Shown one piece after another: positions 6,569-11,174 of a stretch of DNA of 64,000 nucleotides. Position 1 is the first letter of the stretch. Each line of letters opens with the position of its first letter. The DNA is taken from the NCBI GenBank assembly GCA_002917775.1, contig KZ627158.1:468578-532577 (forward strand), read 5' to 3'. The notes beneath the pieces are model-generated. The model saw only the letters and a program-made list of their open reading frames with translations, did not search any database and was not told the DNA's origin. The translations under genes were made by a program, and so were the position numbers. The stretch is from Glaciozyma antarctica PI12 (Eukaryota > Basidiomycota > Microbotryomycetes > Kriegeriales > Camptobasidiaceae).

Positions 6569-8925
6569 ATGCAACGTATCCCTCGCGCCTCCACCTCTCT
6601 CCTGCCGTCCACAAGACGAGTCTCCCGCCGACCTTTCTCCTCCACCTTCCCCGCCTCCGAACCGGCTGCGTACGCCTCAGCCTCCTCCTCAACCGCCTCT
6701 CCAGCGCCTCCCGAGCTGGTACGGGATCGTGTGATGGTGAGCTGCTCAAACAGGTCGAACAAGGGCGGGGGCGCAAGCTGACGGTTCGTGCCGGGCTCAG
6801 GAGCGTATCGCCAAGGTCGAGCGCAAGTCGGGCTCGGTGTCTCCCTTCCTGACCGATAGCTTTGGGAGGAAGCACGATTACTTGCGGATCAGCTTGACGG
6901 AGAAGTGCAACTTGCGCTGTGAGTACGAGCGCGGGGGAGCTCTGGGCCGTCAACGGATGCTGATTCATTGGATCCCAGGCACGTATTGCATGCCAGCTCA
7001 GGGCGTCCCTCTCCTTCCTTCCTCTAATCTCCTTACCACCCCGGAGATCGACCGCGTCGCGCGCATGTTTGTTACGGAGGGCGTCACGAAGATCCGATTG
7101 ACTGGAGGGGAGCCGACGGTGCGGAAGGACCTGCTTGATGTTGTCGGTGCGTCGCCTTTGAGAGCATAGGCAGGATCAGAAGCTGACCGGATATCACGTC
7201 TACCAGAGCGATTGGGGAAGCTCGGCTTGGATTCGCTGGGGATGACCTCGAACGGCATCGCACTCAAGCGGAAGCTCCCAGCGCTCGTCCAGGCTGGCCT
7301 CACGCATCTCAACATATCGCTCGACACGCTGGATCCGTTCAAGTACGAGCTTATCACGCGGAGGAGGGGATTTGAGGCCGTCATGGATGCGTTGGAGGTT
7401 GCGAGAGGATTAAAGGGGGAGGGGCTCAACACGAAGATCAACTGCGTCGTTATTCGAGGCACGTTCTCACCGAGCTGGTGAAGAGGGACAGGAGCTGACT
7501 GTCTTCCATCCATCAGGCCTTAACGATTCGGAGATCCCAGCCTTTGTCGAGCTCACCAAGCACATGGACATCACCGTTCGGTTCATCGAGTACATGCCTT
7601 TCGAAGGTCCGCACGTCTCACTTGTGCTTCATAAAATGCTGCTAACAGCTTCGCGTACCGTCAGATAACAAATGGTCGACGCAGAAGCTCATCCCGTCTC
7701 AGGATCTCGTCGAAATGATTCGCGAGACCCACCCGCTTTTGGAAAAGCTTGTCGACCAGGCGAGCGACACGACGAGGAGCTGGCGAGTGCCGGGCTACAA
7801 GGGAAAGATTGGGTTCATCAGCAGCATGAGCGATCACTTCTGCGGTGGCTGCTCGCGCCTGCGCGTTGGGGCTGATGGCGGCGTCAAGGTACATTTGTAT
7901 TCATCGTCCTTGCGTCCTCACACGCTGACTTTGCGAGCTCCTAGGTCTGCCTCTTCGGCCCGCCTGTTCTGGCTCTCCGACCTCTACTTCGATCCCTCCC
8001 CGACCACGAGATTCTCCCTCACATTGGGCGCGCGGTTCTCGGCAAGAAGTTCGCGCACGACGGACTTGGAGGTGCGTCGGGTATTGCGGCGAACGGCAAG
8101 AGTGGCCCGATGGTCTCGATTGGAGGCTGAACGCTCATGCCTTGCGCCTTCTTTGCTCGTCGGCGCAGGTGCTTCAAGACGTGAGGCTGCTCCTTCTTGG
8201 CCTGGCGGGTTTGAGGCTGACGTCGTCGAACAGGTCTTACGCCGCGTCCAGTGCGCTCCGCAAGACGCCATCCTCTCATCCCAACGCACCTCTTATCCCG
8301 ACATCTCTACCCCCTACTACATCCACTACTACTCCACTACTCCCAGCCTCACTCATATCGATCCTCTCACCGGCAAAGCCTCGATGGTCTCCGTCTCCTC
8401 CAAGCTCGACACTCTCCGCTCCGCCACCGCCGTCGGAACCGTCTTCCTCACTCCCACCGCCTTTGAACTCATCACCCCTCCCTCGTCATTTTCCGTCGCT
8501 GCGATGCCGACGAAGAAAGGCGACGTCCTCACGATCGCTCAACTCGCTGGGATCATGGGCGCCAAACATACGTCGACGCTCATCCCGCTTTGCCATCCCC
8601 TCTCTCTCACGCATATCTCCGTCACCCTCACGCCTGACTGGTCGAATCATTCGATCGTCGTGACTGCGACGGCGGAGTGCGAGGGGAAGACGGGGGTCGA
8701 GATGGAGGCGCTCACGGGAGCGACGGTCGCGTGCTTGACGGTGTGGGATGTGAGCTGGCTTTCGCTGCTTTCTAAGCTTCGTTGCTAATCTTTTGACGCG
8801 GGTAGATGTGCAAGGCGGTCGCTGGGCGGGAGATGGAGATTGGAGGGATCAAGGTCGTTGCGAAGAGCGGAGGGAAGAGTGGGGATTGGGTGAGGGAGGG
8901 TACGAAGGTCGTGCAGTCGGAATAG
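6569..8925 (+). CDS. MOCS1: MOCS1/cnxABC-type gene: fused GTP 3',8-cyclase (MoaA) and cyclic pyranopterin synthase (MoaC)
   Basis: Two catalytic modules for the first step of molybdenum cofactor synthesis (GTP to cyclic pyranopterin monophosphate), probably mitochondrial. The N-terminus is Arg/Ser-rich and leader-like. The MoaA part shows the radical-SAM triad [28 protein letters not shown], and the second cluster [18 protein letters not shown]. The MoaC part shows [38 protein letters not shown] and WDMCKAV. Exons of the fused form: 6569-6736, 6801-6918, 6979-7146, 7207-7458, 7517-7606, 7665-7888, 7945-8071, 8169-8749, 8806-8925 (615 residues). The intron at 7459 is GC-AG. The first donor could instead be at 6719, also in frame. 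If the intron at 8072 is kept, translation ends at 8130 after Ile-Gly-Gly (see next entry). Confidence 0.92.
8072..8168 (+). other. Optional intron carrying the MoaA Gly-Gly-stop end (isoform switch)
   Basis: When retained, exon 7 reads on to PMVSIGG and a TGA at 8128-8130, giving a 401-residue MoaA alone. When removed (donor GTGCGT at 8072, the commonest donor in this window; acceptor GCGCAG at 8163-8168), codon phase 1 joins to a frame open without a stop through all of MoaC. In animal MOCS1 the A protein must end in a free double glycine, and alternative splicing that removes it fuses A to B. The sequence here has exactly the elements for both products. That both transcripts are made is inference. 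Confidence 0.75.
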
Positions 8926-9077: not shown

Positions 9078-11174
9078 ATGTCGTTCCCTCCTTCAGGGAT
9101 AGGAGCAGGCTTCATCTCCTCAGGCGGGCTACGCGTTCCCCCACTCCGCTACCTCGCCGTACTCGCCTTCACCCTGATCGTCTCCACGCACTTCCTCTTC
9201 AGCTACTCATCCGACACGTACGCCGACCACACCTCCGTGGACGCCGTCAAATCGCGCTTAGGATTCGGAGGAACGGTAGCTCCGTCGACGTGGTCGGGTG
9301 GGAAGAAGGAGCTGGGCTTGTCGCCGTTCACGGAGCACGATGAGGCGACGGCGGGGCACAATGCGAGTAGGCGGGCTAATGCGGCGTTCGTGGTGAGTGC
9401 CAGACGTGCTCTTGCTATGGGGTGTGGGGAAGCAGGATGGAGAAGCGCGCGTTCCCAGGAGATGCGTGCGTGGAGAGGTCCCGCGAGCTGATGCCCGCTG
9501 CTCTCTCTCGCAGATCCTGGCGCGGAATTCGGATGTGTGGGAGATTATCGAATCAATACGTGGAATCGAAGGTGCGCGGGATTCTGCTCTTGCTCGAGGA
9601 CGGAGAGGAGGGTTCGTGGGAGCTGCGTCTGAGGAGGGGAGCTGCGTCTGAGGAGGAAGCGTGCGATGGAGGGATGGGGCACTGACGGCTTTGGAAGGAT
9701 AGATCGCTTTAACACGAGGTACAACTACCCTTACGTCTTCCTCAACGACGAGCCTTTCACAGACGAGTTCAAGAAGTACACCTCCGCAATCGCCTCGTCT
9801 TCCTGCACGTACGGCCAGATTCCCGCCAACCAGTGGAGCGAGCAGCCGGACTGGATCGACCAGGAGAAGGCCAAGGCTGCGCGTATGGAGACAGAGCAGA
9901 AGAAGGTCATTTATGGGGGCTCAGTCTCGTATCGCCAAATGTGTTCGTGCTCTCGCTCGCTGAACGAGGGCGAAGCTGACGCCTTCGACGCGCAGGTCGT
10001 TACCAGTCTGGCTTCTTCTGGCGGCACGAGCTGCTCGACAAGTACGAATACTACTGGAGGATTGAGTGAGTGGCCTCCGCTCTTCGCTGAGGATTCGCGC
10101 TCACCTAGATTCCTCAGGCCGCACGTCAAGTTCTGTATGCCCTGTTCGAAGTGACGCCTCACCTCTTCAACTGCTGACGCCGTACACGCAGTTTGCGATA
10201 TTGACTACGATCCATTCCTGCTGATGGCCGACGGGAAGAAGAAGTACGAGTGTCCGGCTCCTTTTTTGAGCGGCGCTGACCTCGCTTCCGATTCGCAGGT
10301 ACGGATTCACCGTTACGCTTTACGAGTGAGCTGGTCTGAAGATCGTGTAGCCTCCTGCGCTGAACTCTCCCCTTCCAGGTACGCAGAGACGATCGAAACG
10401 CTTTGGAGCACCACCAAGGGTGAGTTTGGCCCCTCCTTTTCAGCTAGTACAAGCGCGCTCACATTCCGGCGTCGCAGAATTCATCAGCGAGAATCCTCAA
10501 TACCTCGCAAAACCGAACCTGATGGACTGGTTGTCGGATGACGGCGGCGAGACCTAATACGTCTCCTCTCGCTTTCTCTGCTCCCATACGTGCTAACGCG
10601 GTCTTCTGTCTCCAATAATTTATGCCATGCGTGGACGAACTTTGAGGTACGCATCTCTCACAGACTCTCACGACATCGCTGACGGTCGTAAACAGATCGC
10701 AAGCCTCGATTTCTGGCGGAGCGAAGCGTACCGAGCCTACTTTGACCATCTCGACCGAGCTGGCGGCTTCTTCTACGAGCGGTGGGGTGATGCACCAGTC
10801 CACTCGATCGCTGTTGGACTGTTCCTCAAACCGGAGGAGGTACATTTCTTCCAGGACATCGGCTGTTCGTTCCTCTCCCTTTTTGTCGCGCAACTTGGAG
10901 CTGATCAAGACTCGCAGACCGTCATGAACCGTTCCAGCATTGCCCTAAAAATCTTCCCGACAAGTGCGCCTGCAACCCGTGAGTCTACCACCGCTGATTC
11001 CCTCGACGCCGACTGACGGCCGCACCTCGCTTCGCAGCGACGATCCCGACAACTTTGGTGCGCGCTTCCTTCCTCACTTCCACTTCCTGAACTAACCTCT
11101 CGACGTGCGCAGAGGACCACTGGTACAGCTGCACGCCTCGCTTCAAGAAGGTCACGGGCTGGAAGGGGAATTGA
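9078..11174 (+). CDS. Alpha-1,2-mannosyltransferase, GT15 (KRE2/MNT1/KTR) family
   Basis: A 415-residue type II Golgi enzyme that adds alpha-1,2-mannose to O- or N-linked glycans. There is one N-terminal membrane anchor (about residues 26-45). GT15 marks are [33 protein letters not shown], the metal/nucleotide loop [25 protein letters not shown] and a Cys-rich C-terminus. Exons: 9078-9392, 9514-9571, 9703-9942, 9996-10065, 10118-10134, 10192-10249, 10299-10325, 10379-10419, 10478-10556, 10616-10646, 10696-10864, 10918-10978, 11038-11057, 11113-11174. Exons of 17, 20 and 27 nt are notable. The intron at 10557 lacks GT-AG ends (separate entry). Intron 2 (131 nt) contains a short tandem duplication near 9617-9655. 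Which KTR paralogue it matches is not determined. Confidence 0.92.
10557..10615 (+). other. Non-canonical intron with AT-AA ends in the GT15 gene
   Basis: Conservation demands G-E-T-Y-N-L-C-H across this point. The only 59-nt removal that restores it starts ATACGT and ends CTCCAA, with a good CTAAC branch near 10592. No AG dinucleotide lies between 10561 and the required junction, so a normal GT-AG intron is impossible. Without splicing the frame meets a TAA at 10555. Apart from the first and last bases it looks like an ordinary GTACGT...AG intron with both terminal G changed to A. Confidence 0.6.

Follow-up and report, generated by a model that had tools for sequence, protein, structure and literature searches.

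A candidate retained-intron switch between MoaA and a MoaA-MoaC fusion in the yeast Glaciozyma antarctica

A single gene of Glaciozyma antarctica PI12, carrying one inefficiently spliced intron, quite probably supplies the two enzymes with which molybdenum cofactor synthesis begins. The intron, at positions 8072-8168 of the window (the whole 64,000-nt stretch of DNA analysed here), encodes a Gly-Gly-stop in frame with MoaA, and its removal joins MoaA to MoaC in frame. If it is kept in the mRNA, translation would end at the Gly-Gly-stop and yield MoaA (GTP 3',8-cyclase) with a free tail; if it is removed, both tail and stop would be lost and translation would continue into MoaC, producing a MoaA-MoaC fusion. 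Judged from the sequence, this reading of two products and one optional intron is well supported and was rated above each of the alternatives considered below, because each predicted product matches its domains in full and a canonical MoaA tail is encoded in the intron. The device as such is known, having been shown in Neurospora, and the gene described here appears to be a well-built instance of it with a differently placed intron.

Results

Gene structure and predicted products

Removal of all eight introns leaves nine exons in the MoaA-MoaC gene (Table 1). Intron 4 was read as GC-AG because the MoaA frame (RG-LNDSEI) needs it, while the optional intron interrupts codon 383 in phase 1. The initial annotation of this DNA had proposed that retention of this intron gives MVSIGG followed by a stop at 8128-8130, and direct reading of the frame bore this out, the product being a 401-residue MoaA that ends in PMVSIGG before a TGA codon. 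Its further proposal, that excision of the intron (GTGCGT donor, GCGCAG acceptor, phase 1) joins the MoaC frame, was likewise upheld: the result is an in-frame fusion of 615 residues with its stop at 8923-8925. The C-terminal double glycine is present in the retained form and absent from the fusion.

When compared with the TIGR02666 model, the retained form scored 326.4 bits (cut-off 284.05) and matched the complete profile (positions 1-336 of 336, residues 73-401), and the fusion scored 322.7 bits with a match ending at profile position 312, so that the tail adds just 3.7 bits to the score. The Pfam domains Radical_SAM and Mob_synth_C were found in both forms and MoaC in the fusion only, where it is complete (PF01967, 1-136 of 136, 162.3 bits versus a cut-off of 27). 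The fusion was also above the cut-offs of the NCBIfam models NF006870 and TIGR00581. Solved MoaA structures were uninformative on the tail, since the best chains align only up to residue 346.

The N-terminus of the protein is rich in arginine, has no Asp or Glu among its first 30 residues and includes the motif RRPFSST; as judged from the translation, this stretch may have a role in mitochondrial targeting.

Downstream of the gene, a neighbour on the + strand (9633-10151) matches Glyco_transf_15 (Glycolipid 2-alpha-mannosyltransferase, E 1.5e-25).

Table 1. Features of the MoaA-MoaC gene in window coordinates, and the position of the nitrate reductase-like series on its own contig
Feature	Position	Strand	Evidence or remark
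MoaA-MoaC gene, ATG to fusion stop	6569..8925	+	gene model, translation, Pfam/NCBIfam matches
N-terminal stretch resembling a mitochondrial presequence	6569..6664	+	read from translation
Introns 1-3	6737-6800, 6919-6978, 7147-7206	+	gene model
Intron 4, GC-AG (GCACGT...CATCAG), CTGAC branch site	7459-7516	+	gene model
Introns 5-6	7607-7664, 7889-7944	+	gene model
Exon 7, final exon of MoaA upstream of the optional intron, phase 1 end in a Gly codon (G/GT)	7945..8071	+	
Optional intron, 97 nt, donor GTGCGT, acceptor GCGCAG, without CTRAY branch site	8072..8168	+	
Coding part of the retained intron, matching the canonical MoaA C-terminus	8072..8130	+	TIGR02666, bacterial tails, chance tests
CTGAA, sole CTRA branch-like site of the optional intron	8127..8131	+	putative branch point
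Exon 8, with an open MoaC frame, encoding the 72-residue linker and the greater part of MoaC	8169..8749	+	
Look-alike intron (GTGAGG...CTGAC...AACAG) in the linker	8181..8233	+	
First MoaC-frame ATG past the optional intron (Met455), possible internal start for lone MoaC	8384..8386	+	
Last intron, within MoaC, downstream of the GG-stop	8750..8805	+	
Nitrate reductase-like domain series (L052)	contig C8, 880500-888500	minus	

The double-glycine tail compared with chance

A scan of genome contigs with the protein produced 38 relative loci, every one of them with a prokaryotic record title, and a scan of viral contigs produced none. A terminal GG is present in 36 of the 38 relatives, in 35 cases as M..IGG; locus L039, which runs off its contig, and locus L006, with six residues in the frame used, gave no usable C-terminus. 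Bacterial MoaA and MoaC consist of the same domains as the yeast gene products, and the tail of the yeast retained form matches the bacterial M..IGG tails, whereas the bacterial MoaA reading frames, in the relatives read, are without introns, unlike the yeast gene.

A profile of the last eight residues of 36 bacterial MoaA proteins was used to score the yeast tail, which obtained 12.06. This value was reached by five of 200,000 random sequences having the dinucleotide make-up of the intron (99,965 of them with an in-frame stop) and by two of 200,000 having that of the window (113,215 with a stop). Among 200,000 random sequences the pattern M..[ILV]GG-stop did not occur once, whereas a bare GG-stop is fairly frequent, with 1386 occurrences per 200,000. 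Retention would introduce an in-frame stop in 76 of the 114 introns that a crude gene finder predicted in the window and a GG-stop in two, namely the optional intron and one other that lacks M..IGG. A local HMM of 30-residue tails failed to separate the real tail (score 2.0) from shuffled ones, of which 1554 of 20,000 did equally well and the best reached 10.4. This outcome counts against the tail, yet was given little weight because the test held the upstream exon residues fixed and, allowing partial matches, did not require the end of the profile. It is unlikely that the PMVSIGG tail arose by chance.

Genome context and nitrate

One PF01967 place and one PF06463 (Mob_synth_C) place were found in the 20.0-Mb genome (18 contigs), and the gene at 6569-8925 should therefore supply both activities. 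On contig C8, the domains Oxidored_molyb, Mo-co_dimer, Cyt-b5 and FAD_binding_6 follow one another in this order on one strand within ~2.4 kb, which we take to be the layout of an assimilatory nitrate reductase. The genome therefore likely holds a nitrate-linked user of the cofactor, and the presence of this nitrate reductase-like gene makes nitrate control of the optional intron plausible.

A second pair of Cyt-b5 and FAD_binding_6 domains lies ~6 kb away on the opposite strand, outside L052.

Splice signals of the optional intron

The donor of the optional intron scored 7.28, the highest value among the GT sites scored in 7945-8299, compared with 2.5 or less for the other donors in 7945-8130. 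Intron 3 of the gene has the same GTGCGT donor, which also heads the list of donors in the 84 short introns predicted in the window (24/84, both strands, versus 11/84 for GTGAGT), a set that includes false introns and is not fully independent of the gene because of the seeding and errors of the gene finder. The latter is crude and blind to branch sites, was seeded with the codons and splice sites of the MoaA-MoaC gene, splits that gene in two while joining the parts to neighbours, and returns five of its eight drawn introns (those starting at 7147, 7607, 7889, 8072 and 8750). Thirty-five single GT-AG introns could fuse the two domains in frame (length 40-350 nt, donors 7945-8299, acceptors 8000-8379), with 8072-8168 the best at 9.99 versus 6.95 for the next.

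The branch region presents a different picture. Each of the seven other introns of the gene (56-64 nt) has a CTRAY motif 15-20 nt before the AG, and the same motif is found 10-26 nt before the AG in 70 of the 84 short predicted introns (45-72 nt) and in nine of 29 longer ones, many of which are probably false. A search of the 97-nt optional intron for CTRAY found none. If its CTGAA were used, the branch A would be the final base of the TGA stop (8130), at a distance of 38 nt from the AG, and a looser branch-like site, CTCAT, was noted by eye at 8134-8138. The missing branch site suggests that splicing of this intron may be slower. RNA folding of 8040-8200 was unremarkable (z -1.42; 20 of 200 shuffles folded equally well).

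The look-alike intron in the linker was rejected, since its removal, with or without that of the optional intron, loses the fusion. It has CTGAC 13 nt before its AG, and is possibly a product of chance or a decoy.

Because its donor is strong, the optional intron might be removed nearly always. Taken to the limit, with removal invariable, only the fusion would be made, and the GG-stop would be a relic from an ancestor with a separate MoaA. The donor score and a usable acceptor agree with such a history, as does the gene finder, which splices out 8072-8168 with no use of branch sites; a relic should decay, however, and here the tail still fits and the stop is still in place. Invariable removal would also leave the yeast with no GG-ended MoaA from this gene, and no other MoaA locus was found. 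We consider this explanation improbable.

Comparison with known systems

The initial annotation had described a switch of the MOCS1 type with two products from one optional intron. The sequence supports the two products well, but the annotation had overlooked the precedent of the same device in nit-7 of Neurospora crassa. In human MOCS1, splicing of one gene gives either MOCS1A or a MOCS1AB fusion, which is cut to release MOCS1B, and all MOCS1AB forms reach mitochondria via an internal signal (PMC9607355). The human choice consists in alternative splicing in exon 9, whereas the simplest choice in the yeast gene is retention of a whole intron.

For nit-7, experimental evidence is reported that the unspliced form gives NIT-7A, with its GG encoded by the intron, and that the spliced form gives NIT-7AB, which sheds its A part once imported into mitochondria and so releases NIT-7B (PMC7232280). 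In the same study, the A domain of the NIT-7AB fusion is reported inactive, heterokaryons required both NIT-7A and NIT-7AB to grow on nitrate, no significant growth was seen in a strain whose nit-7 cannot yield the spliced form, and unspliced nit-7 was the only one of the transcripts measured to rise significantly upon nitrate induction (PMC7232280). The suggestion that intron retention would set the ratio of the two enzymes thus has to be modified: by analogy with the inactive A domain in Neurospora, the yeast fusion would be a delivery form of MoaC and not an enzyme with two activities.

Like the yeast gene, nit-7 as described there is one gene in which the unspliced intron gives a GG-stop and splicing fuses A to B, and the donor is in phase 1 in both, as calculated for nit-7 from the construct numbers (PMC7232280). 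The two differ in that nit-7 has one intron (1460-1696) and the yeast gene eight. In nit-7 the donor (1460) interrupts the first of the two Gly codons, with the NIT-7A construct spanning 1-1467 and the stop ending at 1467 (PMC7232280), so that donor and stop are two codons apart compared with 19 in the yeast gene, and the position is not shared. Intron position was not counted as essential to how the switch works. The GG-stop is beside the branch region in the yeast gene and beside the donor in nit-7, and the yeast gene, unlike nit-7, has another intron (8750-8805) after the GG-stop. These differences are compatible with a possible independent origin of the yeast switch. Among the literature matches listed (titles and starts of abstracts, with few subscription journals), there was no report of the same device in a basidiomycete.

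Aspergillus nidulans cnxABC, a fungal homologue of nit-7, is discussed as one transcript for both domains, with separate translation as one of the options considered (PMC7232280). A rival account of the yeast gene is that 8072-8168 is not an intron at all, and that a single mRNA gives MoaA-GG and, starting from ATG 8384 either internally or by reinitiation, MoaC. The earlier observation that any other MoaC start would have to be internal was confirmed, as this ATG is the first in the MoaC frame past the intron, and its Met455 coincides with the start of the Pfam MoaC match; a human MOCS1 patient allele moreover is described as giving trace MOCS1B via reinitiation (PMC9607355). The longer NCBIfam MoaC models, however, begin upstream of Met455, at residues 440 and 444, and 72 residues of open MoaC frame lie between the acceptor and Met455, a stretch that would be superfluous for a lone MoaC. 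The phase of the intron fits, 253 nt and an ATG in another frame (8137) separate the GG-stop from ATG 8384, and a lone MoaC starting there would lose the presequence-like N-terminus. In Neurospora, NIT-7B made on its own from a comparable Met did not localise to mitochondria, and together with NIT-7A it did not support wild-type-like growth (PMC7232280). We therefore place translation from an unspliced mRNA below invariable intron removal, as an improbable account of how MoaC is made.

Discussion

Under the preferred reading of two products from one optional intron, the fusion would serve to deliver MoaC (cyclic pyranopterin monophosphate synthase), by way of the shared N-terminus, to the mitochondria, where MoaC would probably be cut free; import and cleavage are both proposed by analogy with Neurospora nit-7. 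The poor branch region may set the ratio of the two products, both mRNAs would be expected to exist, and their balance may be linked to nitrate demand. In the MoaA-only mRNA, intron 8750-8805 puts an exon junction 619 nt past the GG-stop, and this mRNA could therefore undergo nonsense-mediated decay. Alternatively, the MoaA-only form might arise by early cleavage and polyadenylation in or just past the intron, in competition with splicing. The protein pair would be unchanged and a long 3' tail avoided, but this route is very unlikely in our judgement, its weak point being that AATAAA, ATTAAA, AATATA and TATGTA are all absent from 8131-8400, itself a weak argument because fungal poly(A) signals are loose.

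A more far-reaching version of the two-product reading is that of a second retained-intron switch, placed independently and found beyond the ascomycetes, whose weak branch site is formed by the Gly-stop codons (GGC TGA) themselves. We offer this version only tentatively and think it rather doubtful. One short stretch would then both end an active enzyme and tune how often that end is spliced out, and the intron after the GG-stop would act as a second control by exposing the MoaA mRNA to nonsense-mediated decay.

Conclusions

To our knowledge, introns that serve as a working protein tail if kept and as a fusion switch if removed are uncommon. Annotation of such a gene with the spliced form alone would be expected to miss the active MoaA. 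A case in which the intron is placed differently would make it possible to ask if the Neurospora switch is an ancestral trait of fungi or has arisen repeatedly, and, if the more far-reaching version above holds, fungi would have converged at least two times on an unspliced intron that supplies the catalytic tail of an enzyme. The yeast gene would also provide a clear test of how, under nitrate demand, a weak branch site could determine the proportions of two products.
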